NCBI GenBank assembly: GCA_023634235.1
Contig: JAMKCF010000013.1
Span: 13,641,705-13,705,704, forward strand
DNA from: Pisaster brevispinus
Lineage: Eukaryota > Echinodermata > Asteroidea > Forcipulatida > Asteriidae
Length of the DNA stretch: 64,000 nucleotides
Direction of reading: 5' to 3'
Part shown: in pieces, positions 5,381 to 21,905 of the stretch
How the letters are laid out: each line of letters opens with the position of its first letter
Position numbering within the stretch: the stretch's first letter is position 1
Notes under the pieces: generated by a model
The model's database searches: none
Told to the model about the DNA's origin: nothing
The model's input: only the letters and a program-made list of their open reading frames with translations
Translations under genes and position numbers: made by a program

Positions 5381-8300
5381 CATACTTGGTGAATAAAGAC
5401 TGAAAGAGCTCACAATATTTGTATGTAATTTTTTTTTCTCTCAAAATGCAATCACCTCCCTTCTAAGCAACAGCTGTTGAGAAACACATCTCCAGTATTG
5501 ACAATTGGTGCTGGAGAAAGCTGTACCCATGTGCAACGTTCAATCACCTTGCCCAAACATGTGCACACTTTCCCCAAATCCCATTAAGCGCAATGTAATT
5601 TGTTAAAATGTTTGGGTTTAAAATCTTTTTTAAATTAAGTGCATTCTCAAATGAGTAACTGCAGCAGCAGCCTGGGTATCACATTATCAGGCACATAGCC
5701 CAGTGTTGGGGCCCAGGTCTCTCGATTTGGGTGTTATGCTGTTAAAGTGGAATGGCCATTATATTGATTTTGATTTGCCACCTGCCATAGCCAGTTGTCA
5801 CTTGACACATCCTGGGGTATGAAACAAGCAGGTGAGATGATTCTTTCCTGCAGTTTTTAAATATTTTTATTAAAAGCATGAGCTACTCTGGAGAATGTGA
5901 ACGTGGTTTAAGGGGTAATCATGAAGTTGATGAAGATTAAGACTGGGACCCAATTTCATAAGGGTGCAACTTGCAAACATAGACTGTGCAAGTCTCGCGC
6001 GGATCAAAAATGAGATAACATCTTGACTGAAGACTACAGTGTATATCTTTGTATGAAAAACAAATCTTCTTTTAAAAAATTCTGTTAGTAAACAAAAATC
6101 TTGAAAATAAAAAACACCCACAGCAATTTGTTTCTAAATACAATTTCAGTTTTTATAAAAAACATACAGTTTGTTAAAATTTTCATTGAAACAAAATTAA
6201 AACTTTGGACAAGGATGCTTATTTTTTGTTTATAGAAAACCTCATTTGCCAATCACACCAGAATTTGGGCGACCATTAAAAAGCTTTATGATGATTGCAT
6301 GAACATCATTTTAGCAAAAATTCTTAATTGTTTACAAGTAACCAGAAATGGAGGTCAAGCCGTTTTCTCAGGTTTTCTTTGTTGATTTGTTAAGTTTGTT
6401 TACTTTCATATACTTTAAGACTGAAGTTTACTTTCCCAACAATATGATATAATTGTTAGAGTGTACAGCCATAAACTGTGTTAAAACTAAAAGTATCTGA
6501 AGAAACAAAACTGCGCACAGGTACAACTCAATATGGTAGGGACCAATTTGGTCCCAGGAGTTTGTAATGTAACACATAGTCCCACAAGTACGTGCAGCTC
6601 TGGAAAGTATCATTTCAATATTTTATGTCATGCAAAGTATTCAAAATGCTGATGTTTTTCCCCCCAAAAATCAACATATTATTAGAATGTTTACCTGAAT
6701 TTGACAAGAAAATTAAATCATTTTTCAAGGATGACTGCAGGAATTATTTCTCTGGATAAATTGCACCACTTAATTTTACCTCTCCTTTTTTTGCACACGT
6801 GTATAAACCATCATTTATGCGTTTGCTAGTCCATCACCTAAACTATGTATTGAAGCACAAAATCCTCTAGGGGTACCTGTGTTTAAGCTCTTTGCAATGT
6901 AAGAAAAGAGGCAGGATCAAGGAAGATCTGACAAGACTCCATTAGCACCTTACAAACTTAGTACATGTGTAAAAGGGAATCTCTTAAACTTTCTGAAAAG
7001 CCACCTTTACTGATCGTCTATTCCCTGTAGGATACCAAAGTGGCTGAAGAGCAAACCGGGACCATTGGCCCCAATTACATGGACAGACTATTACAGGGTT
7101 ACAGGCTTTGACTATAAGCCCATGGAACCTGCTCTCATTTTCTGTTGGTTAGAGACTGGGACGTACATGTAGAAGGTGGGAAGTTTCTCCGGGGCTGCAT
7201 TAAAATGTGCTTTGGGGCTGCATTAAAATGTGCTTGGGAAAGATACTTATTTTAATTTGTAATTTCAAGTAAGTGTTGTGAAGATCAGTGTATTCCATGC
7301 AGTCGTACATGTGCACATAGTGCATTTGTATATTTTGAAGGAAGACCGATTTTTTTAAGCAAAACCAGAAAGTTCCAACGACATTATTACAATCTACTTA
7401 GTGAGTTTTGCATTGAACCTTTTCAACCACAACCCTGTAGCCTAGAATTTCACAAAAAAACTGGCCTCCATTGCACTGGTGTAGTCCTTGAAAAAAATTT
7501 CCTCCGACTTTAAAAGTTTCTGATTGAAGTGCGCCTTTTTTCCTGTAAAGTTCCCGCCTTCCCTTCAAGAATGTAATCGCAGGAGTGCTGTTTAGACTAG
7601 CATGCTGATCAATATGTTGAATTGCTGCATGTAAACCACCGGTCGTTCTCAGAGCCAACACAACTTTTAAGAGATTACACGCACATGTCAGATGGACTTA
7701 ACATCCAAAGGAATTTGATTTTCGGGCAAGAAGAATTCCGACGTCATTCTAGGGTTGCTTGAGGACTTTTGGCTAACCTCACAAAAACACCTGATCCAGT
7801 GTTGGATAAACTTTTGACCTAATAAAGTATGCACATCCTGATGTCTTATAAATATAAGGGGGAAGTTTATAAGAAATGGGGAAAAAAAACATCTGCCGCA
7901 AAGCCCACGTTTTCTCATCGACTTACAAAAAATAATATCTTTTTTTCGGGCCCCTCTCTTGTTGTGTGCCATTTTACATAATTGAATTGAAGATTGAAGA
8001 CTGTCGTCGGCTTCTTCAAAGGGATAGAAGAAAGGGAGGACTTTGTATGAAGCAAGCCGACCAAGAATGCAATGTAGGGCCCGGTCGACTCTATTCACTA
8101 GCTCTCAGCTATTTTTCACTTTTACCCTCTCGCTAGCAGTCATGAATTAAATTGTACTTTCTTCTGTCTTGTCCCTAGACTGAAGGGTTTCTTTGCTGGA
8201 CAATGACTTGGGATAAGTGAATGATATAAGGAAGGGGGGGGGTTGGAATTGGGGTTGTTGTGTGGTGGCTGCAGTCATTGGCTATTATATAGGGGGTAGC

Positions 8301-8698
8301 ATTGCATAATTAGCCGTAACAAGAAAGTTTGTCACTGCGAAATACAGTGACATACAATACAGTATTGTGTGGAGGGAGCATAGGTGCTGTGGAATGTCTT
8401 TCCTGCATGACTTGCCTAAGCTTACATCTTTGGGCAAAGCTGAAGATACATGTGAAGTTAATTATTCTAATGGGAGACTTTGTTCTCAGAAATGTGTGAG
8501 TGCTCAGGATCGGGTAAACAATGGAGATATTACTTGGTCTGTCTGCTGCCATCTAGCATTTCTTAAAGTTCCCCGAATATCATCTCAATAGAAAATTAAA
8601 TCCTACACATACATTACTGCAAACATTGGTCTTCAGAAGCCGTACACAACAATATTTTTAGCCTAAGCCTATATCAGATTTTACAAGTTATTAATGTT
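5381..8698. other. No gene recognised
   Basis: No convincing exon. A fragment at about 5946-5972 (GGGACCCAATTTCATAAG...) resembles one end of the TIR repeat seen intact at 39364-39558. A 23-bp unit beginning GGGGCTGCATTAAAATG is tandemly duplicated at 7191-7235. The rest is AT-rich unique-looking sequence. Confidence 0.5.
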
Positions 8699-8881
8699 GA
8701 GTGTGAAGCCAAGCTTTTTGCTTCTTCTCACCCATACTCTCTTGCTTTTCTGAGATGTAGAACAAAGAGCCATTCCCACAGCTTCATTCAATGTTCTGCA
8801 TCTCTTTGGAACTCCTTGCCTGGTGCATGTTTCCCTCCATCCTACAATCTAGACTGTTTTAAGAGGAATATGAATTCCTAA
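8699..8881 (+). pseudogene. 3' end of a non-LTR retrotransposon (LINE) reverse transcriptase ORF
   Basis: An open frame of about 60 codons ends at the TAA at 8879-8881. It contains SLWNSLPGACFPPSYNLD followed by CFKRN. The pattern WNSLP...YN...FKR is typical of the extreme C terminus of CR1/L2/jockey-like LINE polymerases (family knowledge). No upstream reverse transcriptase is present, so this is a 5'-truncated insertion. A second, frameshifted copy lies at 51612-51843. The exact clade is not determinable. Confidence 0.5.
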
Positions 8882-9495
8882 CTACAGCTCCCCTTAGTTA
8901 TTAAAAAAAATACATAAATGAGTAAATGATAGAAATAATAAGTGTAAGTCTTGATAATGTTTCCGTTTGTTTTTTTATGTTTTTATTTGTGTGGGTATCT
9001 GTTTCTGTTGTTGTTGTGGTTGTTTGTTTTTTTAATTACTGGTGTCCTCAATTTTTTTTTACATTTAGGACCAGACAAATGTTTTGAATCTCTGCTGAGG
9101 ATGACTAAATGTACTGTCCCATTATTGAGTCCATTCAGTGGAACCTAAAAGTGATCAACCAGGATGGAATCTTTATTTCCCATTTCACTGAGCTGTTTTT
9201 TTATTGCCTTGTTACCCATTACCTGTCCATCCCTGTACAGGGTTGAAGGGGATATCCAGAATATTCTGTCAATAGCTTTGCAAAAAGACTCTCCGGGGAG
9301 GTGTGTGGGGTCTTAACATGAAGTGCATTCTATTCAGAGAGAATTTCAATGGTTTATTGTGATGAGAGGTGGACGCTAGACCAGGATTTGTTACTGTTGT
9401 TGTTGTTGTTGTTGTTGTTGTGGGGGTCCCGTGTCCTATCAGTGTTTCCTCTGGCTAATGGAATGAGCGAGGGGAAAAAGTGCAAATTTCATAAC
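8882..9495. other. No gene; (GTT)n microsatellite at 9395-9421
   Basis: This follows the LINE remnant and may include its 3' untranslated tail. A GTT trinucleotide repeat of about nine units occupies 9395-9421. No other feature is recognised. Confidence 0.55.
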
Positions 9496-9760
9496 TTATG
9501 AAAAACTTACCCAGTTTGCAAACTGACAAGAATGCAGCACTCACATAAATTTGTGATGACTCCATCCATGTACACATTCTAACTGCAAGTTCTAGACACA
9601 TAAAGATCAAGGAAAAAGCTTAAATAACACAAAATTAATTTTTTTGTTGCTCTTTGTGGCAAGTCTTCACAGCAAGCTGGTGATATTGGCCCCAAAATGA
9701 GCGAGACTGAAAGTAGCAAGGTGGGCCGCCTAACCTTTGAAAGGGCAGGGGAAACACTAT
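9496..9760. repeat. Dispersed repeat, copy 1 (paralogue at 62569-62809)
   Basis: Shares blocks with 62569-62809 in the same orientation and order, including AACTGACAAGAATGCA, a diverged GGTCAAGG-type block, GACAGCAAG.TGGTGATATTGG and ATGAGCGAG. The two copies have diverged by substitutions and indels. The family is unknown to me and has no coding capacity. Confidence 0.55.
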
Positions 9761-12076
9761 GTCCTTTCATGAATCTACATGTAGCTGCAACCATCTTTTT
9801 AAAGGTACCTAGAGTACACAATGGTAATGAAAGTTCTAACAACAATTCTTTAGATTGGAGGGACCAGACTATTTTGTCTTTCCCTCTGCTTGCCTTGATT
9901 TGATTGAAAGATAACCAAGATGGCTGCTTAGCTTTTCAACACTGCTGAGCACCAAGTAGGTAGGAATTTGCATTAAAAAACTAAGATCTACATTGGAAGA
10001 AGTCCTTGATTTCACTGGAGATTCAGCAGTGACAGTCATGCCATACACAGTATGTCATGTGTACCCAAAGGGAATAGACTCTGCATGTAATGTACGTTGT
10101 ACAAACAGTATGCATGCAGTCCTCCATATTTCTAACCCTGGCCTTGTTTGACCCATGTAGCTGGTTGGTCTGTCCATAAATAAAGACACACTGTCAGAGG
10201 GGTCAGAGACTACAAACATAGATTTGCCACAAAAACCCAAACCTCATAGCCTACAGGGTGAACACCTGACACCCCTGACCATAGACCAAGGCTCTCTCTG
10301 ACAGTAAGTCCCCTTTTAATAATTGGGAGGAAACTTTCTGAAAGCTGTTCCTTGGCCCGCCCCAAGGGAAGGACAGAAACTTGGCCCAGTTTTAGTTTTT
10401 TATTCATGGGATAAATATCTTCTTATAATATTTAAGATATGCGATGTGGGATGAAAAGGTGAAAGGCTAACAAGTGGTGAATGGGAGGTGCAAATGGTAA
10501 CAAGACCAGGGCATGGGGGTCAAGGAGATAAGTGCCTAAAACTGGGCCTAACAGTACATTCACGTTTGGTGGTAAATTTAAAATCAGCTAATTTTGTTTA
10601 CAATTAGAATTAAAAGTGAAAAGAGTGATTTTTTTTTAAAAACCAGATGGCTCAGTTTTTGTTCATTCTGTAGGAATTAAGACCATGAACTTTTAAGATG
10701 TGTTTGGTACAAAATTGTAAAATGAGCTTGTGGGAAGAAAACGTTTTGAAAACAGTGTGTATAGTGAACGATGAAAGTAGATGTAATAATAACTTACAGT
10801 ACTTCAGTATTGATCTGCTTTACATGTTGAAATTGAAGATGAATTCTTTGAAATTTATATCCCATTATTTGAAGACATACTGTACCATGTCTGAACAATG
10901 CTAACCTTATTGTCGGGGCAAGTTGTTTTTGACAAAACTAAAATTCACAAAGAATACCGTCTTCATCCAGAGCTCTATTCTTCACCATTTTGAGCATAAA
11001 TATGTATTTTATGATTTTGAAATAAAGTTGGTACCTTGATGTATGTGTGAATACATACATACATGTGTGTACATTCAACTGTATACTTTTTGTACGGTGT
11101 GGTAGACAGTTTGCCATCCATTTAAATTCTGGATTGCAGTACAATAAATACCTCTGTTTTGTATGAAGGCCTGTGTCAACAGTGTGGCATTTTCGTTTTT
11201 GTCTCTGAAACTTTCATTGAAGGAAAACAGAAAACTTCAGCAGTACAGATCGTTTATTCTTCTTTCTCCATTGTCTCGCATGATGTAGAACGTCCCTTCT
11301 TTGGAAGACTATCAAAGCGTGTAACATTATACGAAGGGAAATTAAATCGTCACGCAACATTTAATAACTTGATATACATGTACTGTACTTGTGACAGTAG
11401 GCTGTGAATGATAAAGAATTTTTTTTTTTTTTACTTTACTCTGTATTCTATTTACACATGTTGGGTTGTCACGGTTGATTGAAATGTATAGTCACTACAT
11501 AAAGCTTGTGTGCGAAGCGGTAAAATAAATTCCAATATTGGTTTTCAGTAAAGATTATTTGTAATTTAGAAGGAAAAAAAATGCAGTAATTGTGTACATA
11601 TACGTGTGCATAGTGTATATAAATCTTATCTTCTGTACACAAAATACAATTTTGTTTTGAAGAACTCTTCTGATGAAAACAGACTACGTCAGAGTCCCCA
11701 GGGCCGTGGAAAATTAAACTTTATTTTCCCTAACTAGAAATTCAATTAGCAATGACAACTTGGTCAGTGTAATAACTGAGTTCAATCAAGCAAGGGAAAA
11801 AAGAAATAGATTTTTTCGGACATATGCCTCGACATTTGGAAACGTTTGGCACATTTTAATATTGGGTTGACGATACAATTACAAACCAAAGGCAAACCAA
11901 TTACAAATCAAAACTATGATTTTTCTTTCATCGGTCATTGAATTAGTTGTAAAAATCAGTGTGTTTTTTGCTGTTTGTTTTTCTGAAACTGTCTATTAAT
12001 GGAAAAGTCTGACTGATAAACAAACCTTGGTCAAGGCGCTTCACTTTTTCTTCTAAAAAGCAAACAAACAAACAAA
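9761..12076. other. No gene recognised
   Basis: AT-rich flank of the retroelement with no convincing exon. A short AAAC tract (12061-12075) abuts the inverted-repeat element that the retroelement entered. Confidence 0.5.
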
Positions 12077-12132
12077 GGCCATCTCCGAGTTAATGGCTTC
12101 GGCACTGGCTATGGCTTAATCGATGAAAGTAT
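12077..12132. mobile_element. Left half of an inverted-repeat element split by the LTR retrotransposon
   Basis: Begins GGCCATCTCCGAGTTAATGGC. Its partner on the far side of the retroelement (21906-21956), reverse-complemented, reads GGTCGTGTCTGGCTATGGC. Together they make a roughly 107-bp element of the family seen at 28399-28647. The retroelement is therefore nested inside an older transposon. Confidence 0.6.
12129..12132. other. Target-site duplication, left copy (GTAT)
   Basis: GTAT directly precedes the 5' LTR and recurs at 21902-21905 after the 3' LTR. With a preceding A the match would be AGTAT (5 bp) if the LTR ended at ...CCAC. The inverted ends TGTG/CACA favour the 4-bp reading. Confidence 0.85.
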
Positions 12133-12149
12133 TGTGATGGAATTGCATG

Positions 12150-12300
12150 AGTTTGTTTAGTCATGTGACATCGCACGTGATGTGTGAACGACGTCATTGG
12201 TCATGTGTTGGCTTGCACCAATAGGGTTGGTGCAAGGTGCAAGTTCCCGCCACGAGAAGTCAGGTGAACTCTGATTTGTGCGGTAGTTGTAGTTCAGTTG
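12150..12300 (+). promoter_or_regulatory. Putative U3 promoter region
   Basis: Visible motifs are GTCATGTGAC (about 12160), CACGTG (12174-12179), GACGTCA (CRE-like, about 12190), ATTGG/CCAAT (about 12196 and 12218) and an initiator-like TCAGTT at 12294-12299. A 10-bp perfect inverted repeat, CTTGCACCAA / TTGGTGCAAG, with a 5-nt loop lies at 12212-12236. No strong TATA box sits at the matching distance; ATAAAAG at about 12392 is an alternative. The start site is inferred, not seen. Confidence 0.35.
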
Positions 12301-12474
12301 GGCTAGTTGCCCGTAACTTTAAAGAAGTTAGTTAAGTTTATGTAAGATATTGTGCGCTGTTGGGCGTGCACATGGCTTTCAGGAAAGCGTGATAAAAGCT
12401 GCTGTTTTGGGTTTTGCAGAGTAGTACTGTATTAGTAGAGGGACTTGTTCCAGAAATTCTGTGCAGCATATTCA

Positions 12475-12480
12475 GTAAGT
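12475..12480 (+). promoter_or_regulatory. Candidate splice donor in the retroelement leader
   Basis: GTAAGT followed by AT matches the U1-complementary donor consensus; the preceding exon bases are TTCA. If transcription starts near 12296, this lies in the untranslated leader. It could pair with the acceptor at 19457-19458 to make a subgenomic mRNA for the zinc-finger ORF, as retroviruses do for env. The pairing is inference. Confidence 0.35.
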
Positions 12481-12936
12481 ATTTGAGAGTTGTTCATCAA
12501 TTTGTGCATTTTAGGCAGCGTTGTTTAAGGCTGTGCGCGTGCAGGCGATCGTCGTGATAAATACACAAGACGATCAGCCGGAGCTAGCTGTACTGCAGTG
12601 TAGTTGAACTGGGTTAAGTGCAACGACCCGATGGTTGCCGTCGCTGTGTGCGAGGCAGACAACTACTGTATTCCGAGAGGGCTGTGTAGCGGAGCGGGTC
12701 GTGTGTTGTTGCCGGGACCGAGCTGTGTGCTCAAGGCCTAAGGTAGCTGGGTTGCGCTGGGCTAGGCGTGCAACTGCGGCGTGGTGCTCTGTGTATGTGT
12801 TGCCTCTTACTGGTATTGAGTATTGCTAGGTGTAGTAGTATTTGGTTACATGACTTGTAGATAATTTGGGGTCTCATATTCTAAGTGCTTACAGACTAGT
12901 TATTTTGCCCAACTTCTGGAGTTGAAGGTGAATGAC

Positions 12937-12942
12937 AATAAA
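12937..12942 (+). promoter_or_regulatory. Poly(A) signal AATAAA in the 5' LTR
   Basis: AATAAA is followed by GT/T-rich sequence (TGTGTCCTATCTGTGTGATT) within about 60 nt. The 3' LTR copy at 21661-21666 would be the functional one, placing the R/U5 border near 12960-13000. Confidence 0.6.
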
Positions 12943-13179
12943 TTACTTTTGAGGTCAAGGTCACTGTTAAACTGTGTCCTATCTGTGTGATTATTTTAGG
13001 GAATTGTGTGTACTCTGACAGAGAGGTTTACAATCTTTTATAATCGGGCGGTATACTTCCTCCCAAACGAATCTCGCCACTCAGCCTTAAGTCCGCTTAG
13101 TGACTTTAACTTGAGCTAGCAAGAGAAAGGGTCCGAGTTAATAAGCACAGACTGGATAACGGTCGGTGCCCGCCACAAA

Positions 13180-13197
13180 TGGTGTCAGAAGTGGGAT
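13180..13197 (+). other. Primer-binding site, tRNA-Leu type
   Basis: TGGTGTCAGAAGTGGGAT starts two bases after the LTR's terminal CA. Its complement corresponds to the 3' end of animal tRNA-Leu (CAA/CAG) genes plus CCA, over all 18 nt as I recall that tRNA. This gives the direction of reverse transcription and independently confirms the LTR boundary. Confidence 0.85.
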
Positions 13198-13285
13198 GAT
13201 TATAATTGATTAAGTGAACTCTCTGTTAAAGATTAAGCCTCCCTCTATAGGGAAAGGCAGAGATACACAAGTGAAGAGTGTGGTC

Positions 13286-13567
13286 ATGCAAAATTGTCTT
13301 GGCGTATACATACTCTTGGTAATTTTGGTTGTTGTTGTTTTAATTCTGAGCGGGTTGCTGGTTAGAACTTGCATAGAGTTAAAACGATTGCGAAGAGTCG
13401 CAAAGGAACAGAGGTCGACACTGCTGCGAGTTCGTCAGTTGGCGAGCCAAGCGCAAAGTGTTGGGTTTTCGCAAGGTTTTCGGCCGCATCGGAGTGCATC
13501 ACTGACTAATTTGCTTGAAGTGACTGAGTCACCGAGCAGACATTGGTCAAGTGTAGCAACCGTGTAA
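13286..13567 (+). CDS. Putative 93-aa single-pass membrane microprotein upstream of gag
   Basis: Chosen from the first ATG in this frame; the frame stays open upstream to 13214 but without an ATG. Residues about 7-26 form a strongly hydrophobic helix (YILLVILVVVVLILSGLLV). A basic, amphipathic stretch follows (LKRLRRVAKEQR, about 32-43), then a Ser-rich tail. By the positive-inside rule the C terminus would be cytosolic. It lies between the primer site and gag, ends in TAA at 13565-13567, and is followed 14 nt later by a second membrane ORF. I recognise no homologue. It could be a real accessory protein or a broken N-terminal extension of Gag. Identical LTRs argue against long decay, though a defective genome could have been mobilised in trans. 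Confidence 0.5.
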   Translation: MQNCLGVYILLVILVVVVLILSGLLVRTCIELKRLRRVAKEQRSTLLRVRQLASQAQSVGFSQGFRPHRSASLTNLLEVTESPSRHWSSVATV

Positions 13568-13581
13568 GGTTACCAGCCCTA

Positions 13582-13725
13582 ATGCGAGTTTGGGTTGTTA
13601 TCATAATCCTGGTGATTTTGGTTGTGGAAATTTATTGTGTGTGGAGTAAAATCCAACAACGGAGACGTGGTACTCGCTGGTTGTCATCCACACGGGGTAC
13701 TGTTGAGAGAGAGACATCAGTATGA
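13582..13725 (+). CDS. Putative 47-aa membrane microprotein overlapping the gag start
   Basis: Starts at the ATG at 13582-13584 (the frame opens at 13528, but upstream only TTG is available). Residues about 3-21 are hydrophobic (VWVVIIILVILVVEIYCVW) and followed by a basic tail with RRRGTR. Its TGA at 13723-13725 overlaps the gag ATG as ATGA, an arrangement known to permit termination-reinitiation in compact viral mRNAs. The core ILVILVV also occurs as LLVILVV in the preceding ORF with similar DNA around it, so the two may be duplicates. No homologue is recognised. It lies in a third frame, -1 relative to the ORF before it. Confidence 0.45.
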   Translation: MRVWVVIIILVILVVEIYCVWSKIQQRRRGTRWLSSTRGTVERETSV

Positions 13726-15293
13726 GTGTAGGGTCAAGGGTTACCTTGGACCCTACGGGTACGGAGTCTGAGTTACAGAAGCTCCGCATGGACTATCAAA
13801 TTCTGCAACTTGAAAAAGAACTCGTTGCAAAGAAATTGGAGGCGTCCATGAATGGAATGCCCAAGGAACACATGCCTCATGAAGGAAGGCGTGTGAGGAA
13901 GAGTGTAGATTCTGAGGTGGAATTACTGGTGACGAAAGAGACGGCAGGGTATGCCTCTCGTCTACCGGTTGACTTGTGGAGTGTGGACATGAAGGAACCA
14001 GAAATGGATCCCATGTCGGGGAGGGTTGGCATTGTGGGAAGTACACCTCTGCGGGGCGGAAGTGCGGCGCAATTTTCCCCAACTGAGTTAACCCCCATCG
14101 CCAAGGACCCCCCCAAGCACACTCCAGTTGACGAATTGGCACTGTTCTTGTCAGGACAAAGTGTCGCCGAACACAGTTCACGAAGCCGAAACCCATTTTT
14201 AGAAGAAGGGGAAATGGCTCCGAAGAAATTTAGCAGCGAACTGCTAAGCTGTGCTACCCACCCAGTGGAAGTAACACAAAGCAGCAGTTTGGCTGTGAAG
14301 GACCACACTTCAGTAAGGCCTCAGCCACTGAAGAGTGAAGTCCCGGATGTGAAGGACGACACAGATCAGAAGGACCTTTTGGAGGGACTAAAAAATCGTC
14401 GCCCAAACATAGTCCCTGATCGGTATAATGGCAAGGTTCTCTGGAAGGAGTATTACCGCCATTTTGAATCGTGTCGTGAGGTGAATGGTTGGACTGATGA
14501 GCAAGCTGCAAAGTATTTGACTGCAGGCTTGCAGGGGAACGCTCTCCGAATGTTGGGCGAATCGGGACAAAAGTACACTTATAGTGCACTTGTCAAACTA
14601 TTGGAGAGACGTTTCGGGTCAGGTAGGCAGAGTGAGAACTACCTAGTCGAATTGAGACACAGGCGGCAAGGTCCAAAGGAGTCACTGCAGGAACTGGGTC
14701 AGGCGATCTATGAGTTGACGGCACGGGCATACCCTGAAATTCAGGAAGATGCACGTGACCGGTTGGCTAGAAATCACTTTGTAGATGCAGTGGATAGCCA
14801 TTCGATACGGGAGGGCATAAATAGAGCCCGTCCAAAGAACTTGGACGAGGCCATCCAAGCAGCCTTAGAAACTGCTAATTTTGAGAGTGTGGAAGTTCAA
14901 AGGTTGGTGGACCGAAAGCCTGCTAAATTAGCGAGGGCTTTGGACTCTAGTATGGACATGAGGCTTGGTTCATTAGAGGCCCATCTCAGTGAGCAGGCTC
15001 AGAGCTTAAAATCTTTGGCGGAGTTTTGTAAAAACTTGTCAGGTCAGAAGGCCCGTGAGTCAGTTCAACAAAGGGAAGTGCCCACAAAGCAAGTGCACAA
15101 GTCCTCATCAGGTCCAGCTGGTCACCGGAAGTGCTATAATTGTGGGTTGGAGGGACATTTCGCACGTGAGTGCAAAAGGCCCCGAAAACAGAAGAATCAG
15201 ATGTCGGGAAACGCCGATCAGCCTCCTGCAGGATCCCCAGTCAGGCTGAATGTACGAGAGGGTCCAAACGACAACATGACAACAACGACATAG
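13722..15293 (+). CDS. Gag polyprotein of the Ty3/gypsy element (523 aa)
   Basis: Gag forms the particle that packages element RNA. Residues about 15-41 look like a short coiled coil (heptad-spaced Leu, Glu/Lys-rich). Residues 100-220 are low-complexity and Pro/Ser-rich. About 228-395 resemble the retrotransposon gag capsid region (W241, then WTDEQAAKYL, LLERRFG, ESLQELGQAIYEL). One CCHC knuckle, C-x2-C-x4-H-x4-C, lies at C471-C484 and would bind RNA. The ATG at 13722 is the first in frame; a TGA at 13704 closes the frame upstream. The zero frame ends at TAG 15291-15293. A fraction of ribosomes probably shift -1 after codon 497 to make Gag-Pol. Confidence 0.93.
   Translation: MSVGSRVTLDPTGTESELQKLRMDYQILQLEKELVAKKLEASMNGMPKEHMPHEGRRVRKSVDSEVELLVTKETAGYASRLPVDLWSVDMKEPEMDPMSGRVGIVGSTPLRGGSAAQFSPTELTPIAKDPPKHTPVDELALFLSGQSVAEHSSRSRNPFLEEGEMAPKKFSSELLSCATHPVEVTQSSSLAVKDHTSVRPQPLKSEVPDVKDDTDQKDLLEGLKNRRPNIVPDRYNGKVLWKEYYRHFESCREVNGWTDEQAAKYLTAGLQGNALRMLGESGQKYTYSALVKLLERRFGSGRQSENYLVELRHRRQGPKESLQELGQAIYELTARAYPEIQEDARDRLARNHFVDAVDSHSIREGINRARPKNLDEAIQAALETANFESVEVQRLVDRKPAKLARALDSSMDMRLGSLEAHLSEQAQSLKSLAEFCKNLSGQKARESVQQREVPTKQVHKSSSGPAGHRKCYNCGLEGHFARECKRPRKQKNQMSGNADQPPAGSPVRLNVREGPNDNMTTTT
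15206..15249 (+). promoter_or_regulatory. -1 programmed frameshift signal (GGGAAAC plus stem-loop)
   Basis: GGGAAAC at 15206-15212 is read in the gag frame as G GGA AAC, the X XXY YYZ slippery pattern; the same heptamer is used by some betaretroviruses. After a 5-nt spacer, TCAGCCT (15218-15224) pairs perfectly with AGGCTGA (15243-15249). A further CTG/CAG pairing is possible inside the loop. Heptamer frame, spacer length and downstream stem all fit a classic -1 frameshift site. The pol frame has no ATG before the protease core, so frameshifting is the natural route to Pol. Confidence 0.8.
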
Positions 15294-18200
15294 AGGAGAA
15301 GAAGTTTAAGCATGGAGATGTGCAAAGAGAAGTTACTCTGCCCGAACCAGGTGTTACTCCCCGCATGGGTATGTTTGTGGAAGGGTCGGTAAGGGCTACC
15401 AAGTGTTGGTTTTTAATCGATACGGGGTCCACCGACACATTGATAAGTAGTTCAATCTTTTACGAAATACCTAAGGAGCAAAGACCCATCTTGGAGACGG
15501 ACGGTGTGGTTGTAAGACAGGTTGATGGTAGTCGTATTCCCACACTGGGGAAGGCAGCTGTGGAAGTGCAAGTTGGAAGGACAACGCACATGGTGAAAGC
15601 AATTTTCACAGAAATGAAATACCCAGGCATCCTGGGGATGGACTTTCTACTGCCCACTGGTGGAACACTAGACTTCCAGTTGAAGGAATGGAGGCTCAAT
15701 GGTGAGCGAATAAAGTGCACTGGCAGGGCTGGTGAATCCTTCATTGGGCGTGTGGTAGTTTCAAGAACTACAGTGATTCCATCAGGCCATGAGGCTGTTG
15801 TCCCGGGCATTATTGCTCGAAGGAAGGCTGCTTTGGTGGGTCCAGCCATGGTTGAACCAATTGAGGGTGGCGGTGAGTTGGCACAGAAGGGCTTGGTACT
15901 GGCCAGGTCCTTGGTAGATGGCGAGTCGGAAGTTATTCCATTGAGGGTGTTTAACCCTGGGAGGGGAGAGAAGGTGGCCCGTGAGGGGACCACTGTGGGA
16001 ACCCTCTCCACAGTTGAGACCGACTCAGGGTATGGAGAGTTAGAATCTCCACCGAGTGCAGTGAATACTCTCCCTGTACACTTGCACGACTTATATGAGA
16101 GGGGTACGGCCAACCTTGAGACTAAGTACCACAGTGAGGTTCAGAAGTGCTTGCATGACTATCAGGACGTGTTCTCAAGGGGAGAACATGATATTGGCAA
16201 AACCAATATTGTTGAACACCAAATAAAGACGGGAAGTGCCAGGCCAGTCAAAGAACGGCCAAGGAGGCACCCCTACTGCAACCAGCAAGAAATCCAGCGA
16301 CAGGTGGCCGATCTCGAGAAGAGAGGTGTTATTGAGCCCTCAGACAGTCCGTGGGCTGCAAATGTTGTTTTGGTTCGGAAAAAGGATGGGACGCAGCGTT
16401 TCTGTGTGGATTACAGAAAATTGAACGCAGCCACCATCAAAGATGCATATCCTGTGCCACGTATTGATGAAACTTTTGACGCTCTGAATGGGGCTAGGTG
16501 GTTTACGACACTTGACTTGGCATCAGGGTATTGGCAAGTTGCTCTGGATGAGGACGCCAGCCAAAAATCAACATTTGTAGTAAGGAATGGTTTGTACAGG
16601 TGGAAGTGTATGCCCTTTGGGTTATGCAATGCCCCAGCAACGTTTGAACGGCTCATGGAGAAGGTCATGGCTGGGTTGCAGTGGGACATCTTGTTGGTTT
16701 ACTTAGACGATGTAATTGTCTTTGGTCGAACAGTAACGGAAACTCTACATCGTCTGAGAGTTGTTTTGGACAGATTGAGACACGCAAGACTCAAATTGAA
16801 GCCCAGCAAGTGTCACTTGTTTCAAAAGTCAGTGGCTTATCTGGGGCACATTGTGTCATCAGAGGGGGTAGCGACGGACCCGGAGAAGGTGAAAGCTGTA
16901 GCCGAATGGCCAACTCCGAAGTGTGTAAGAGATGTGAGAAGCTTTTTGGGCCTCGCCTCTTACTACCGGAAGTTCATTCGTAGGTTTGCAGAAATTGCCA
17001 GTCCGTTGCATGCCTTGACTGAGAAATCAAGGGAGTTTGCATGGACGGAGTCTTGCCAAGGGGCATTTGATGAGTTGAAGGACAGACTGCAGTCTGCCCC
17101 AATCTTATCATACCCCAATCCAGAGGGAGATTTTGTCTTGGACACGGATGCCAGTGGAGAGGGCATCGGGGCGGTACTATCACAGGTCCAAGATGGTGAG
17201 GAAAGAGTCCTGGCTTACGCAAGTCGCAAGCTCAGTAGACCTGAGCGCAACTATTGCGTGACTCGACGTGAGTTGTTGGCTGTGGTCATGTATTTGAAAT
17301 ACTTTAAACAGTATTTGTATGGTCAGAAGGTCAAAGTAAGAACTGACCATGCTGCATTGCGGTGGGTCCTTAATTTTAAGAACCCGGAGGGTCAGCTGGC
17401 TCGATGGATTGAAGTCATCTCACAGTATGACTTGACGGTGGAGCATAGGCCCGGTAGAAAGCATGGCAACGCTGATGGGTTGTCGCGGAGGCAGTGTAAA
17501 CAGTGCGGCCGAGAAGAAATGACCAATAACGAGCAGCCAAGTGATGAGACACCCGGGGTAAAACCTAAGGGTGAGGAGTTGATCGTAAGGGGTCTGGAGG
17601 CCAGACCTATCATTTCGAAGGAAGCTTTGCGGGAGGCACAGCTGGGAGATGGGACAATGAGTTGGGTCCTCAAGTCCAAAGAGGATGGTAGTGGTCGTCC
17701 AGAGTGGAAGACGCAGTCCCACTCCTCAGTAGCATCCAAGACCTATTGGTCCCAATGGGATCAACTAGAGGTTAAGGAGGGGCTTCTCTACAAGCGATGG
17801 GAGTCGGATGATGGGAAGTCGGTAAGATGGCTCCTGGTCTTGCCACAGAAGTTCAGAAAGAGTATCCTCAGTGAGTTGCATGGTGGGCAACTCAGTGGAC
17901 ACTTAGGTGTTAATAAGACACTCGCCAAGGTGAAATACAGGTATTTCTGGCCAGGAATGTCTGCGGATGTTCGGTCATGTTTGAGAGTTTGTGACCTCTG
18001 TGCCAGGAGGAAGTCTGCTGCAAAGAGAAGGGTTGCCCCTTTACAACAGTATCGGGTTGGCGTTCCTCTGGAACGGGTAGCAATAGACTTGCTCGGGCCA
18101 CTGCCCAGGACGGACAGTGGCCACCTGTGGATTATGGTGGTGGGTGACTATTGCACTAAGTGGATGGAGGCATATCCGCTTCCTGACTCCACTGCAGGTA

Positions 18201-19225
18201 CGGTTGCCCTGAAACTGGTGAACGAGTTTGTTTGTAGATTTGGGGTGCCCCAAGAACTTCATTCTGATCAGGGCCGGAATTTTGAATCTGAGGTGTTTAG
18301 TGAGATGTGCCGGCTCCTTGGAATCATGAAAACCCGAACGACCGCCTATAACCCAAAATCGGATGGCATGGTTGAAAGGTTTAATAAGACTCTAATCAAC
18401 ATGGTGTCAGTCATGATCGATCCAAAGAAGAGACAGAAGGACTGGGATGAGTTCCTTCCCTATGCCACCTTTGCGTATCGATGTACTCCTCAGGAATCGA
18501 CTGGAGAGTCGCCAAACATGATGATGTTTGGCCGCGAGGTTTATCTTCCGGTAGATTTGGTGGCAGGGTGTCCCGAAACCCAGGAAGACACCAACACCGA
18601 TTTTGCCGAAAGGTTGAGGGGTAACATGCAACTGGCACATGGTAGGGCAGAGGAGTGTCTCGGCAAGAGTGCCAAGAGGCAGAAGAAGAACTATGATAGG
18701 CGTGCATCAGAGCATGGTCTGAGAGAGGGACAATTTGTGTGGTTGTTCAACCCGGCCAAGAAAAAGCATTTGTCCCCCAAACTGCAATTGCGGTGGGAAG
18801 GACCTTGGCTCGTGGTTAAGAAATTATCTGATGTAGTGGTTCGCATCCAGTTGAGGAAGGGAGGCAAGCTCAAAGTTGTCCATGTGGACAGGTTGAAGCC
18901 GTATGTTGGGGAGGAAATTGAACCTTGGGACAGTCCATCCAGTGAGGTGGTGACAGAAAGCCCCCTTGCTGGAGAGGTGACTGCCCCTCGTGAGGAGGTG
19001 ACAGAAAGCCCCCTCATCGAAGAGGTTACACCCTCACAGGAGGAGGTTCTGGAGGTAGAGAGCTCCCCAGAGGAGGTTGTCCCTAGCAACAATGAGTTGG
19101 TCCCTGCCTCCGGTGCAGAAGGACTGGGTGGAGACATGGAGGGTAATCTGCCAGTAGAAAAAGAGAAGACACTTGCCAGGCGTAACCCGAGGCGAACACA
19201 CAGGTTGCCTCTGAGATATCGTTAG
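15212..19225 (+). CDS. Pol polyprotein (protease, reverse transcriptase, RNase H, integrase), expressed by -1 frameshift
   Basis: Numbered from 15170, where the open frame has no ATG start. Aspartic protease: LIDTGST with D84, and the flap-side ILGMD at 154-158. Reverse transcriptase: LDLASGYWQV (448-457) and YLDD (511-514), which copies element RNA into cDNA. RNase H: D660 in DTDAS, E701, D726 and D769 in NADGLSR. Integrase: zinc-binding H904, H911, C941, C944; catalytic D973, D1033, E1069 with 35 residues between the last two. A GPY/F-like module (WEGPWLV) sits at about 1209-1215, with no chromodomain. The order RT-RH-IN is that of Ty3/gypsy. The C-terminal 100 residues are acidic and repetitive. 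All catalytic residues I can check are present and there are no internal stops, so the copy looks intact. The clade within Ty3/gypsy is not assigned. Confidence 0.96.
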   Translation, partial: RRSASCRIPSQAECTRGSKRQHDNNDIEEKKFKHGDVQREVTLPEPGVTPRMGMFVEGSVRATKCWFLIDTGSTDTLISSSIFYEIPKEQRPILETDGVVVRQVDGSRIPTLGKAAVEVQVGRTTHMVKAIFTEMKYPGILGMDFLLPTGGTLDFQLKEWRLNGERIKCTGRAGESFIGRVVVSRTTVIPSGHEAVVPGIIARRKAALVGPAMVEPIEGGGELAQKGLVLARSLVDGESEVIPLRVFNPGRGEKVAREGTTVGTLSTVETDSGYGELESPPSAVNTLPVHLHDLYERGTANLETKYHSEVQKCLHDYQDVFSRGEHDIGKTNIVEHQIKTGSARPVKERPRRHPYCNQQEIQRQVADLEKRGVIEPSDSPWAANVVLVRKKDGTQRFCVDYRKLNAATIKDAYPVPRIDETFDALNGARWFTTLDLASGYWQVALDEDASQKSTFVVRNGLYRWKCMPFGLCNAPATFERLMEKVMAGLQWDILLVYLDDVIVFGRTVTETLHRLRVVLDRLRHARLKLKPSKCHLFQKSVAYLGHIVSSEGVATDPEKVKAVAEWPTPKCVRDVRSFLGLASYYRKFIRRFAEIASPLHALTEKSREFAWTESCQGAFDELKDRLQSAPILSYPNPEGDFVLDTDASGEGIGAVLSQVQDGEERVLAYASRKLSRPERNYCVTRRELLAVVMYLKYFKQYLYGQKVKVRTDHAALRWVLNFKNPEGQLARWIEVISQYDLTVEHRPGRKHGNADGLSRRQCKQCGREEMTNNEQPSDETPGVKPKGEELIVRGLEARPIISKEALREAQLGDGTMSWVLKSKEDGSGRPEWKTQSHSSVASKTYWSQWDQLEVKEGLLYKRWESDDGKSVRWLLVLPQKFRKSILSELHGGQLSGHLGVNKTLAKVKYRYFWPGMSADVRSCLRVCDLCARRKSAAKRRVAPLQQYRVGVPLERVAIDLLGPLPRTDSGHLWIMVVGDYCTKWMEAYPLPDSTAGTVALKLVNEFVCRFGVPQELHSDQGRNFESEVFSEMCRLLGIMKTRTTAYNPKSDGMVERFNKTLINMVSVMIDPKKRQKDWDEFLPYATFAYRCTPQESTGESPNMMMFGREVYLPVDLVAGCPETQEDTNTDFAERLRGNMQLAHGRAEECLGKSAKRQKKNYDRRASEHGLREGQFVWLFNPAKKKHLSPKLQLRWEGPWLVVKKLSDVVVRIQLRKGGKLKVVHVDRLKPYVGEEIEPWDSPSSEVVTESPLAGEVTAPREEVTESPLIEEVTPSQEEVLEVESSPEEVVPSNNELVPASGAEGLGGDMEGNLPVEKEKTLARRNPRRTHRLPLRYR
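18944..19084 (+). repeat. 48-bp tandem repeat in the Pol C-terminal tail
   Basis: The units at 18944-18991 and 18992-19039 encode related 16-residue blocks with EVVTESPL and EEVTESPL. A third, degraded unit runs to about 19084. The encoded region is acidic and probably disordered, C-terminal to the integrase. Its role is unknown. Confidence 0.75.
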
Positions 19226-19429
19226 GCCAATCGTTGTAAATATTTAGTGTTTTGAGAGGGAAGGATGAAAGTCCCCCTATGTATTTGCACTAAAGTCACA
19301 GTACATTGTAAAAACAATAATAATTAAGTTTGAAGGGAAGGGTGAAGGTTTTCACCCCCCCCCTGAAGTTGTTGTACAAAGTGGTTTGTTTGGGAGAGTT
19401 GTTGTGAGATTGGTTGCAGTAGAGTAATG
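19226..19429 (+). other. Spacer between pol and the zinc-finger ORF
   Basis: About 200 bp of non-coding sequence. It contains two purine-rich runs, about 19252-19270 and 19332-19348 (GAAGGGAAGGGTGAAGG). They resemble polypurine tracts but lie far from the 3' LTR; an internal plus-strand primer is possible but unproven. Confidence 0.5.
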
Positions 19430-19458
19430 ACCCCTCTTTTGCTCTCTGTTCTTTCTAG
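19430..19458 (+). promoter_or_regulatory. Splice acceptor upstream of ORF3
   Basis: A long pyrimidine tract (CCCCTCTTTTGCTCTC...TTTCTAG) ends in AG at 19457-19458. A branch-like TAATGAC lies just upstream, and ORF3's ATG is 20 nt downstream. This is the position and form expected for a spliced, env-like subgenomic message. Confidence 0.65.
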
Positions 19459-19478
19459 TTTATCAAGCTGAGATCAAG

Positions 19479-20252
19479 ATGCCGAAAGGAGCTGGCAAGG
19501 TGGTCGCCAAACCTCGGCGTTATAGATGCAGACAGTGCATGAACTCCTACACCCACAGACAGGGCCTGTGGCAGCACATTGAGGCACAGCATGGAGAGAG
19601 AACTATGTCCTGTGAGTATTGCTCATTCAAAGCTGGTCAACTTGGGACCATCATCAGCCACCTCAGAGAGGCTCACCCTGAGGCTAACCGAAGAGCCAGC
19701 GATGCACTGCAGACGGGGGAACCGTCAGTGGCCAGAGTGGAGGTAGAGTCGGCTGGGGACCCCCCTTCAGAGAATGTTGAGATACCTCAGCAGGAGGATG
19801 TGGCTGTGTTATCTCTGTCGCCAACCCCGATGGCAGAGCTACAGGACACGGCCTGGCCCCCCGCAGTTGCCCCATCTACTCAGACAGAAGAGCAACTGAG
19901 ACCAACCGCCCCGATCCCAAAAGTCGTCGGCCCTGCCCGGGGAACAGGTGGGAAACCACGGGCTATGTTAGAGCGGATGAGGGAGGCTGCAGTTGCAGCC
20001 TCATCCTCCACTTCATCGTCTGCCTCCTCCGTGGCACCAACCCTTGACCAACCCCCTACCCTGTTGGTTCCAGAGGAAGGCATGGCTGCCCGACTGCCGA
20101 AGAAGACGAGATTTGCAATAGTGAAGCGACACATCAACGCGGAGTACATCCTAGATGGCCGGGTAATCAAGAGAGAGGAGTTGCACACCCAACACTACCA
20201 TCAAGTACAGGTTGATGAGGATGGCAAGCTAGTCGGATTCCCTTGCCATTAG
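19479..20252 (+). CDS. ORF3: 257-aa protein with two C2H2 zinc fingers in the env position
   Basis: ATG with A at -3. The N terminus is basic (KPRRYR). Finger 1 has C17, C20, H33, H38 and finger 2 has C45, C48, H61, H66, both C-x2-C-x12-H-x4-H. Fingers of this type bind DNA or RNA; the target here is unknown. Residues about 70-200 are Pro/Ser/Glu-rich and probably disordered, including a Ser-rich run near 175-186. The C terminus (about 208-250) has a short conserved-looking segment without a family match. There is no signal peptide or membrane helix, so it is not an envelope protein. It lies 253 bp beyond pol behind a strong splice acceptor. It may be a captured host zinc-finger exon or an accessory nucleic-acid-binding factor; I cannot tell which. 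Confidence 0.85.
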   Translation: MPKGAGKVVAKPRRYRCRQCMNSYTHRQGLWQHIEAQHGERTMSCEYCSFKAGQLGTIISHLREAHPEANRRASDALQTGEPSVARVEVESAGDPPSENVEIPQQEDVAVLSLSPTPMAELQDTAWPPAVAPSTQTEEQLRPTAPIPKVVGPARGTGGKPRAMLERMREAAVAASSSTSSSASSVAPTLDQPPTLLVPEEGMAARLPKKTRFAIVKRHINAEYILDGRVIKREELHTQHYHQVQVDEDGKLVGFPCH

Positions 20253-20617
20253 TTTCTTGCCACAGTTCATAAGGTATCTTATCCCTTTTTACCAGCATTT
20301 ACAGGTTTAAGTACATCATATATTTTTCTATATTTATTTTTTATATCCATAAGTGTTATTTATGTAACCTAGTGCCTTGACCTTTGCCATGTATAAATCA
20401 AAGTCCATTTGATCATTGTGTAAGAAAATCTCAGGTTAACTTTTGAATCAGTGTGTAAATGTGTAATTTTAGACGAAAAGTTTGATTTTGTATAAAGAAC
20501 GAATCTATGCCAGTGTAATCAGCCTAAGATCACATATTTTTGTATTCTGTGTAAAATCAAGTAAGTCCATTTCTTATTGTATAAGGTGTAAAGTCCTGGT
20601 CATGTTAGAAACTTTGC

Positions 20618-20736
20618 GCATCCGTAATGAGCAAATATTTTTGTGTGGAAATTTCCATTGAGTCAAACTTGAGCATATTTAATGAGCAGATTTAGGTGAA
20701 GTTTTCTGGGAGAATTTCTGTGCATACGTAATTAGC
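20618..20736 (+). repeat. Three spaced copies of GCAT-N4-TAATKAGC-like motif
   Basis: GCATCCGTAATGAGC (20618-20632), GCATATTTAATGAGC (20673-20687) and GCATACGTAATTAGC (20722-20736), spaced 55 and 49 nt. They could bind a homeodomain-type factor (TAAT core) or act in the RNA, for example in packaging or localisation; both are guesses. Confidence 0.55.
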
Positions 20737-20821
20737 TTAAAGGTGTTCTCTGATGTGTTATATTGTATTTTAAAATTGTGTGAAGTTTCATGCATTCCAT
20801 TTTGTTTTAAGGTATGGCTAA

Positions 20822-20839
20822 GAGTATGGGGTCATACTC
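20822..20839 (+). other. Perfect 7-bp hairpin near the 3' LTR
   Basis: GAGTATG and CATACTC flank a GGGT loop, 17 nt before the 3' LTR, where a polypurine tract would be expected. It may contribute to plus-strand priming or be incidental. Confidence 0.5.
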
Positions 20840-20856
20840 GGCCAAGCTCGGGCCTT

Positions 20857-21901
20857 TGTGATGGAATTGCATGAGTTTGTTTAGTCATGTGACATCGCAC
20901 GTGATGTGTGAACGACGTCATTGGTCATGTGTTGGCTTGCACCAATAGGGTTGGTGCAAGGTGCAAGTTCCCGCCACGAGAAGTCAGGTGAACTCTGATT
21001 TGTGCGGTAGTTGTAGTTCAGTTGGGCTAGTTGCCCGTAACTTTAAAGAAGTTAGTTAAGTTTATGTAAGATATTGTGCGCTGTTGGGCGTGCACATGGC
21101 TTTCAGGAAAGCGTGATAAAAGCTGCTGTTTTGGGTTTTGCAGAGTAGTACTGTATTAGTAGAGGGACTTGTTCCAGAAATTCTGTGCAGCATATTCAGT
21201 AAGTATTTGAGAGTTGTTCATCAATTTGTGCATTTTAGGCAGCGTTGTTTAAGGCTGTGCGCGTGCAGGCGATCGTCGTGATAAATACACAAGACGATCA
21301 GCCGGAGCTAGCTGTACTGCAGTGTAGTTGAACTGGGTTAAGTGCAACGACCCGATGGTTGCCGTCGCTGTGTGCGAGGCAGACAACTACTGTATTCCGA
21401 GAGGGCTGTGTAGCGGAGCGGGTCGTGTGTTGTTGCCGGGACCGAGCTGTGTGCTCAAGGCCTAAGGTAGCTGGGTTGCGCTGGGCTAGGCGTGCAACTG
21501 CGGCGTGGTGCTCTGTGTATGTGTTGCCTCTTACTGGTATTGAGTATTGCTAGGTGTAGTAGTATTTGGTTACATGACTTGTAGATAATTTGGGGTCTCA
21601 TATTCTAAGTGCTTACAGACTAGTTATTTTGCCCAACTTCTGGAGTTGAAGGTGAATGACAATAAATTACTTTTGAGGTCAAGGTCACTGTTAAACTGTG
21701 TCCTATCTGTGTGATTATTTTAGGGAATTGTGTGTACTCTGACAGAGAGGTTTACAATCTTTTATAATCGGGCGGTATACTTCCTCCCAAACGAATCTCG
21801 CCACTCAGCCTTAAGTCCGCTTAGTGACTTTAACTTGAGCTAGCAAGAGAAAGGGTCCGAGTTAATAAGCACAGACTGGATAACGGTCGGTGCCCGCCAC
21901 A
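20857..21901 (+). repeat. 3' long terminal repeat (1045 bp)
   Basis: Same length as the 5' LTR and the same sequence as far as I can compare by eye. The functional poly(A) signal AATAAA would be at 21661-21666. The two bases before it are TT and the two after the 5' LTR are AA, so unprocessed cDNA would have TTTGTG...CACAAA ends. Confidence 0.97.
21661..21666 (+). terminator. Poly(A) signal AATAAA in the 3' LTR
   Basis: Followed by GT/T-rich sequence, which would end the element transcript within about 60 nt downstream. Confidence 0.65.
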
Positions 21902-21905
21902 GTAT
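21902..21905. other. Target-site duplication, right copy (GTAT)
   Basis: Matches 12129-12132. The reconstructed empty site is AGTATACATACT-like, a near-palindrome, within an inverted-repeat element. Confidence 0.85.

Follow-up and report, generated by a model that had tools for sequence, protein, structure and literature searches.

A young Ty3/gypsy retrotransposon of a sea star with candidate membrane microproteins and a zinc-finger ORF3

What might a retrotransposon without an envelope gene do with three accessory reading frames, and do these frames set its lineage apart? The question is raised by a 64,000-nucleotide stretch of the sea star Pisaster brevispinus (GenBank assembly GCA_023634235.1, contig JAMKCF010000013.1, positions 13,641,705 to 13,705,704 of the forward strand), here called the window and numbered from its first base, in which a long terminal repeat (LTR) retrotransposon occupies 12133..21901; all features of the element given below lie on the + strand. 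Two small open reading frames (ORFs), ORF1 and ORF2, precede gag, and a zinc-finger frame, ORF3, follows pol. Our preferred reading, which we consider probable though well short of certain, is that the sequence features point to a young autonomous copy of an Env-less echinoderm Ty3/gypsy lineage with a modular accessory set, comprising membrane microproteins and a zinc-finger regulator made from a spliced message. The replication core is plain Ty3/gypsy, and, as judged from the copies compared, the leader varies, so that the arrangement of five ORFs is just one of its forms and does not define the lineage.

The element and its young copies

The element is an intact, young Ty3/gypsy (Metaviridae) LTR retrotransposon. 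Its 5′ LTR (12133..13177) and 3′ LTR (20857..21901) are each 1045 bp long with TG..CA ends and show zero differences, and the whole is flanked by a 4-bp target site duplication (TSD), GTAT, at 12129..12132 and again at 21902..21905. Gag (13722..15293; 523 aa) is an open frame with one CCHC knuckle identified by Pfam, and the Pol frame (15170..19225) follows in the −1 frame with a 124-nt overlap. The Pfam order within Pol is protease (PR), reverse transcriptase (RT), RNase H (RH), H2C2, rve and integrase (IN) C-terminus. Thus, TG..CA LTRs, a 4-bp TSD, a tRNA primer binding site (PBS), a CCHC Gag and the order PR-RT-RH-IN together place the element in Ty3/gypsy. In a 23-row Pol alignment the presumed catalytic columns, assigned by reading, are invariant (RT D384, D448 and D449; RH D593/D595, E636 and D661; IN D908, D968 and E1004). 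The slippery heptamer GGGAAAC (15206..15212; G GGA AAC in the Gag frame) stands in the correct frame for slippage and is the candidate −1 frameshift site. Near the Pol C-terminus, a 48-nt repeat occurs in about two tandem copies (18942-19037). No env gene was found between pol and the 3′ LTR, where ORF3 is the only + strand ATG-started ORF of at least 60 aa.

The PBS, TGGTGTCAGAAGTGGGAT (13180..13197), is complementary to the 3′ ends of host tRNA genes and is the same or nearly so in the remaining leaders read. Matching intron-bearing host genes are presumably tRNA-Leu(CAA), judging by the anticodon loop; ARAGORN in intron mode labelled one of them (L109) Ala(cgc), at odds with this assignment, and without intron mode it called no tRNA gene. 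On contig C4 (11879427-11887861), 14 tRNA-Leu-like gene 3′ ends lie on one strand, mostly at a spacing of about 195 bp, at least one of them perhaps truncated. At the other end of the element, no polypurine run is present just 5′ of the 3′ LTR (20815-20856), and plus-strand priming may be unusual. This segment is constant in all nine young copies described below except for one base in one copy. A hairpin is possible there, at −17.6 kcal/mol with z −1.83.

The window belongs to a eukaryotic assembly of 549.7 Mb in 512 contigs. One of these, C512 (16,223 bp), carries a COX1 gene. Within 800 bases of it, with residues assigned by reading, all six AAA codons stand where mammalian COX1 has Asn, one of two AGA codons where it has Ser, and seven of 11 ATA codons where it has Ile, a pattern that suits the mitochondrial code of echinoderms and flatworms. 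The best matches in the PDB are mitochondrial COX1 chains of vertebrates, such as 8ugh and 1occ. Together with an ORF3 homologue in a sea star, given below, this agrees with an echinoderm host, probably a sea star. A search of the assembly with the LTR gave 47 matches (best 40 of 108 candidates scored), so that copy counts are lower bounds, and nine young full-length copies, the window copy included, were compared in pieces. LTR pairs are identical in eight of the nine and differ at two positions in the remaining one; Gag is full length in eight, and seven retain the complete 1351-codon Pol frame. A 4-bp TSD flanks every full-length copy (9/9) and every solo LTR read (6/6), and all 15 have the form NTAN, compared with a TA share of 6.4% among window dinucleotides. 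Excluded from the solo LTRs were L028, an LTR without internal sequence that matched over 992 bp and is missing its 3′ end, and the C17 LTR fragments L045 and L046. A preliminary description of this DNA had proposed a recent, intact element with identical LTRs, all Pol catalytic residues and five ORFs. Its limits prove correct to the base, the comparisons above bear out that the element is recent and intact, and ORF1, ORF2, Gag, the −1 Pol frame and ORF3 are all open in the window copy.

ORF3 and the families that carry it

ORF3 (19479..20252; 257 aa), separated from Pol by 253 nt, encodes two C2H2 fingers (C17 C20 H33 H38; C45 C48 H61 H66), as indicated by its open frame, Pfam and alignment. 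A genome search with ORF3 returned 55 matches (best 148 of 203 candidates scored), and about ten ORF3 types occur in the genome. Family letters here denote ORF3 types; the RTs of C and F are almost the same, and B has the RT of A. The eight zinc ligands are invariant across eight aligned ORF3 sequences, two of them from the same family. For every pair the synonymous rate (dS) either is saturated or exceeds 1.5, with nonsynonymous rates (dN) of 0.33-0.85 among A-F and 1.02-1.39 against the remote G, and since this saturation makes dN/dS unusable, the case for ORF3 rests on its ligands, motifs and length. AlphaFold models the fingers (residues 11-70) confidently, with mean predicted local distance difference test (pLDDT) scores of 75-91 over 10-residue blocks and 52.4 over the whole protein; the LSLSPTP and GKPRxM motifs lie outside the fingers in the low-confidence region. 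A profile search found three matches among 7992 scored candidates, one of them an annotated protein of the sea star Asterias amurensis.

In an RT tree of 30 rows (best high-scoring segment pair per DNA row; midpoint root for drawing; L085 dropped as it had no RT match), the ORF3 carriers A to K fall in one 20-row fork (ultrafast bootstrap 95, SH-aLRT 91). This fork also holds seven public proteins, ORF3 status having been read for the genome families only. The complete ORF3 was read in families A, B, C, D, E, F, G, I and J, and in L097 the reading runs to the end of the stretch; for H, K and L055 the stretch or frame read holds no more than the C-terminal part. The fork does not include M, Z or the rows with arthropod names, nor an insect protein named 'transposon 412' (P0121), which is a mere name, the tree containing no MDG1 reference. 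No ORF3 was seen in the 1.4 kb searched for M (L107; RT identity 62%) and for Z (L095; 50%), and L108 (RT 64%) has a finger-like ORF at the end of its stretch. A B-type ORF3 is joined to an A-like leader and RT in L061, L049 and L080 (C17, 7.42-7.43 Mb), and these copies, together with L111, point to an exchange of 3′ ends between families. Beyond this genome, 6473 of 7965 scored public proteins were related to Pol at E ≤ 0.001. Viral contigs scanned with Pol and Gag yielded no relatives, and a scan of them with the Pol alignment gave one remote contig (L089). The scan of genome contigs likewise found a single remote contig, L090, which probably represents contamination. At 6915-10070, L090 carries a remote Ty3/gypsy element on what is named as a contig of a Calditrichota metagenome-assembled genome, with a 1051-aa ORF downstream of pol.

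How would ORF3 be expressed? A candidate 3′ splice site, consisting of a pyrimidine-rich tract and TAG (19437..19458), ends 20 nt 5′ of the ORF3 start, and on a simple home-made acceptor score its AG (19457-19458) ranks first of the 831 AGs in the element. By the same score, the ORF3-adjacent acceptor is the best of its locus in six of seven other loci from six families. Because the strongest 3′ splice site of the element lies directly upstream of it, ORF3 is probably expressed from a spliced mRNA, and both its location and this acceptor suggest a regulatory role.

A different role would follow if ORF3 were a captured host zinc-finger fragment serving as a nucleic-acid chaperone inside particles or as a guide for integration, and not a regulator made from spliced mRNA. 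This we rate as unlikely, if still deserving of weight. In the PDB its two fingers match a wide variety of DNA-binding proteins of hosts, and the target preference is strong, with NTAN at every TSD. However, the TA bias need not involve ORF3, and a strong 3′ splice site directly 5′ of the frame in the families examined argues for a message of its own.

Leader microproteins and their fusion

ORF1 (13286..13567) encodes a 93-aa candidate membrane microprotein with a short N-terminus, one transmembrane segment (TM) and a basic tail, and ORF2 (13582..13725) a 47-aa one with a TM, a basic RRRGTRWL tail and the C-terminus ETSV. They begin MQNCLG and MRVWVV, respectively, with four to eight residues preceding the TM as counted by eye. 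Hydropathy was computed for ORF1 of families D, E and H only, and the TM and polybasic region of ORF2 were read from sequence. Genome searches gave 49 matches for ORF1 and 27 for ORF2, the latter at E up to 10. ORF1 is open in A, D and E, and pairwise dN/dS (NG86) is 0.32-0.44 for A-D, A-E and D-E, at dS of 0.48-1.30; within family D it is 0.16. A strongly hydrophobic segment is kept, and the C-terminus ...SVATV is conserved in A, D and E and reads WPSVQTL in H. These ratios indicate that ORF1 is under purifying selection, and the predicted segments make a membrane role for the microproteins likely. By the positive-inside rule, which predicts an N-out/C-in topology here, the short part before the TM, the single TM and the basic tail would orient both proteins with the tail inside the cell. 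Analogy raises the possibility that they carry particles from cell to cell.

The leader also appears arranged for translation of several frames. Five ATGs occur from the LTR to 13730, belonging to two tiny ORFs, ORF1, ORF2 and Gag, and the stop of ORF2 overlaps the Gag start (ATGA). Within the bodies of ORF1 and ORF2 there is no ATG in any frame, compared with 3.55 and 3.31 expected (P = 0.0125 and 0.007). The first 551 nt of Gag show no such depletion, and the LTR count is low as well (11 versus 18.9 expected). An absence of inner ATGs is expected where scanning ribosomes have to reach Gag, and taken with the ATGA overlap we infer leaky scanning or reinitiation.

Only three of the nine young full-length copies have separate ORF1 and ORF2. 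The other six encode a single fused microprotein of 57-58 aa, with the start and TM of ORF1 and the tail of ORF2. Most short-form copies have lost 263 bp (13346..13608; junction J1), and other junctions run from 13335-13340 to 13602/13603. Four junctions were distinguished, of 263 bp (C3 and kin), 266 bp (C105), 263 bp (C1, 0.82 Mb) and 269 bp (C4). The first sits on one allele background, whereas the C105 and C1 0.82 Mb junctions are on the window background, one GTT apart, and perhaps reflect a single event. All four lengths equal 2 modulo 3, the value that joins the ORF1 frame to the ORF2 frame, and by eye every deletion form retains one hydrophobic stretch and the ORF2 tail. For three independent deletions, keeping frame by chance has a probability of 1/27, which is suggestive but not proof.

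The long form is likely, though not certainly, the older, with deletion a later step: it occurs in five older copies (L062, C1 6.98 Mb, C21, C23 and L068). The short form is present in an older C4 copy, in L061, L063 and L064, whose A-like leaders are 94-98% identical in sequence to that of the window copy, and in the C1 8.70 Mb copy, as judged by overlapping ORF1 and ORF2 matches. Splicing was considered as the origin of the 263-269 bp deletions and rejected, their ends (by eye) not being GT..AG; a better fit would be template switching between the two TM-coding stretches, which resemble each other.

Leaders of other families vary further. While A has two microproteins or one fused, ORF1 is open in D (L072, L075, L078) and E (L076, L079). 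L065, an old copy with a broken Gag, has an ORF1 of 85 aa and an ORF2 frame with GTG in place of the ATG of A; G (L067) has an ORF1 of 52 aa and an ORF2 of 58 aa, and H (L096) has ORF1 only, of 95 aa. Among 11 leader stretches, L069, L074 and L077 were uncounted, containing no PBS or leader, and L073 reaches only 21 Gag residues; from another eight, L066 was left out, and L068 is a decayed copy.

Might the microproteins act on the host membrane instead of in transfer? As Vpu- or viroporin-like proteins they would clear away or inhibit a membrane protein of the host, or make the membrane leaky to ions, for release or counter-defence. This is tentative, and we incline against it. Their short N-terminus, one TM and basic cytoplasmic tail, with no real ectodomain, suit such a role, as does the C-terminus of ORF2: E-T-x-V fits the class I PDZ ligand pattern, and such C-termini occur on some viral membrane proteins. 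This tail is found in three of the four families with a frame readable to its end (ETSV/ETAV in A; ETIV or ETPV in L065 and G), unlike the EAVV of family E, and its last V is partly dictated by the Gag start in A and free in G. The recurrence of this tail also counts in favour of our preferred reading. On the other side, Pfam gave no match above its cut-off for either microprotein.

Weighing the readings

In our preferred reading of a modular accessory set, scanning ribosomes on the full-length RNA would translate ORF1, then ORF2 and then Gag, by leaky scanning or reinitiation, and Gag-Pol would arise by −1 frameshifting at GGGAAAC. The acceptor at 19458 would yield a spliced RNA for ORF3, a predicted nucleic-acid-binding protein that would most likely regulate transcription or the handling of the element's own RNA or DNA. 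The microproteins would span cell membranes, basic tail inward, and aid particles there, most likely in release or intercellular transfer, as a substitute for Envelope.

Parallels exist in insects, as described in a 2025 preprint (PMC11952523), which reports Env-independent cell-to-cell transmission in Drosophila through small membrane proteins and sORF2-like genes widespread in insects. The MDG1 group (412, Mdg1, Stalker2, Blood and Tabor) carries sORF1 and sORF2 upstream of gag; the sORF2 of 412 is located, together with capsids, at the plasma membrane, where it is proposed to permit a limited fusion by which capsids pass into the oocyte; Voichek et al. themselves report that standard fusion assays were without success (PMC11952523). 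Like MDG1 elements, the present one is an Env-less Ty3/gypsy element with two small ORFs before gag on the full-length strand, ORF2 has the TM and adjacent basic patch of sORF2, and deletions disrupt small ORFs there too (Tabor sORF1, Blood sORF2) (PMC11952523). There are also clear differences: 412 sORF1 is nuclear and helix-turn-helix-like, whereas ORF1 is a predicted hydrophobic membrane protein; the MGxxxS/T myristoylation motif of four of six Drosophila members is missing from ORF1 and ORF2; and the sORF2 ectodomain before the TM has about 30 residues against four to eight (PMC11952523). Unlike the MDG1 small ORFs, ORF1 and ORF2 are able to fuse, and they stand in an echinoderm element with a zinc-finger ORF3 downstream of pol (PMC11952523). 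The microproteins may or may not descend from MDG1 sORFs, two hallmarks being missing.

Other known systems resemble the element in part. FAST (fusion-associated small transmembrane) fusogens of reoviruses are likewise small proteins that cross the membrane once and have a basic patch in the endodomain (PMC11952523; PMC12945298), but their N-out ectodomain has amphipathic residues or acylation sites, for which ORF1 and ORF2 have no room (PMC12945298). Troyka elements share a gypsy-like gag-pol and occur in echinoderms, but have CG..CG ends and 3-bp TSDs in place of TG..CA ends and 4-bp TSDs (PMC12440569). The Gypsy C-clade or Mag lineage includes SURL, which is likewise a Ty3/gypsy element of echinoderms, a likeness by host and class (PMC6238403).

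A bolder reading, which we regard as doubtful, is a program like that of complex retroviruses, in which PDZ-tailed microproteins dock capsids at cell junctions for passage from soma to germ cells and a spliced zinc-finger regulator is added, which would give deuterostomes their own version of the MDG1 sORF2 route, whether of independent or of ancient origin. In complex retroviruses, regulators such as Tas of foamy virus and Tax of HTLV are made from spliced messages of the 3′ region, and here too a regulator-like ORF served by a splice acceptor lies between pol and the 3′ LTR. The likeness claimed is one of layout; env is missing and ORF3 is a C2H2 protein.

Still less probable is that ORF1 and ORF2 are mere upstream ORFs (uORFs) that tune Gag translation by scanning and reinitiation, their peptides being inert. 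The ATG depletion of the leader, the ORF2 start context (weak by reading) and the ATGA overlap would suit uORFs, and several families lack both. Against this stand the constraint on ORF1 between families, its conserved C-terminus, the in-frame joining of every fusion and the retained hydrophobic segment, none of which pure uORFs require. That the ORFs of the leader and 3′ region arose by chance in an ordinary Ty3/gypsy copy is hardly credible: long elements have spare ORFs and some relatives have no microproteins, but open homologues across many divergent families rule out chance for ORF1 and ORF3.

Several observations weigh against our preferred reading of membrane microproteins with a spliced regulator. 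ORF1 dN/dS within family A ranges from 0.41 to 1.13, albeit with few changes. For the splice donor there are only candidates, good ones in the LTRs of families D, E and C and weaker ones in A, and in the B-type copy L111 (C12, about 9.07-9.08 Mb) only the C-terminal ORF3 frame is present in the 801 bases read. The predicted stem 5 nt 3′ of GGGAAAC is no better than shuffles (z 0.36). ORF3 is full length in seven of the nine young copies and shifted in two; D and E have no ATG-started ORF2, the frame being broken in D and shortened in E; and leaders of C, F, I, J and K contain no microprotein, Gag starting 115-190 nt past the PBS. The microproteins are thus dispensable for spread, and either repeated loss or leader swapping would account for this distribution.

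These departures also bear on the suggestion of the preliminary description that a non-standard layout may define a new lineage, which it set against copies lacking the microproteins and ORF3, or having them open in this copy alone. Such copies occur in part, given the six fused leaders, the five families without microproteins and the two shifted ORF3 frames. What holds is the association of ORF3 with every genome family of the RT fork (by its C-terminal part only in H and K); the five-ORF plan is not fixed. Selection, proposed there as a check at dN/dS below 1, is seen for ORF1 between families but not throughout A, and ORF3 gives no usable ratio. As to novelty, ORF3 does make the layout non-standard, while the two small upstream ORFs are paralleled in the MDG1 elements (PMC11952523).

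In the literature searched, most subscription journals and Repbase lying outside its scope, we found neither an element uniting membrane microproteins in the leader, fused forms of these and a splice-served C2H2 ORF3, nor any report of a splice-served zinc-finger ORF3 as a Ty3/gypsy accessory gene. Retained across a large part of the lineage, such an ORF3 would be a second type of accessory gene. An echinoderm lineage with microproteins, natural fusions and clean losses would make the question of Env-independent transfer testable beyond insects, including which part of the microprotein matters and whether copies and families without microproteins behave differently.

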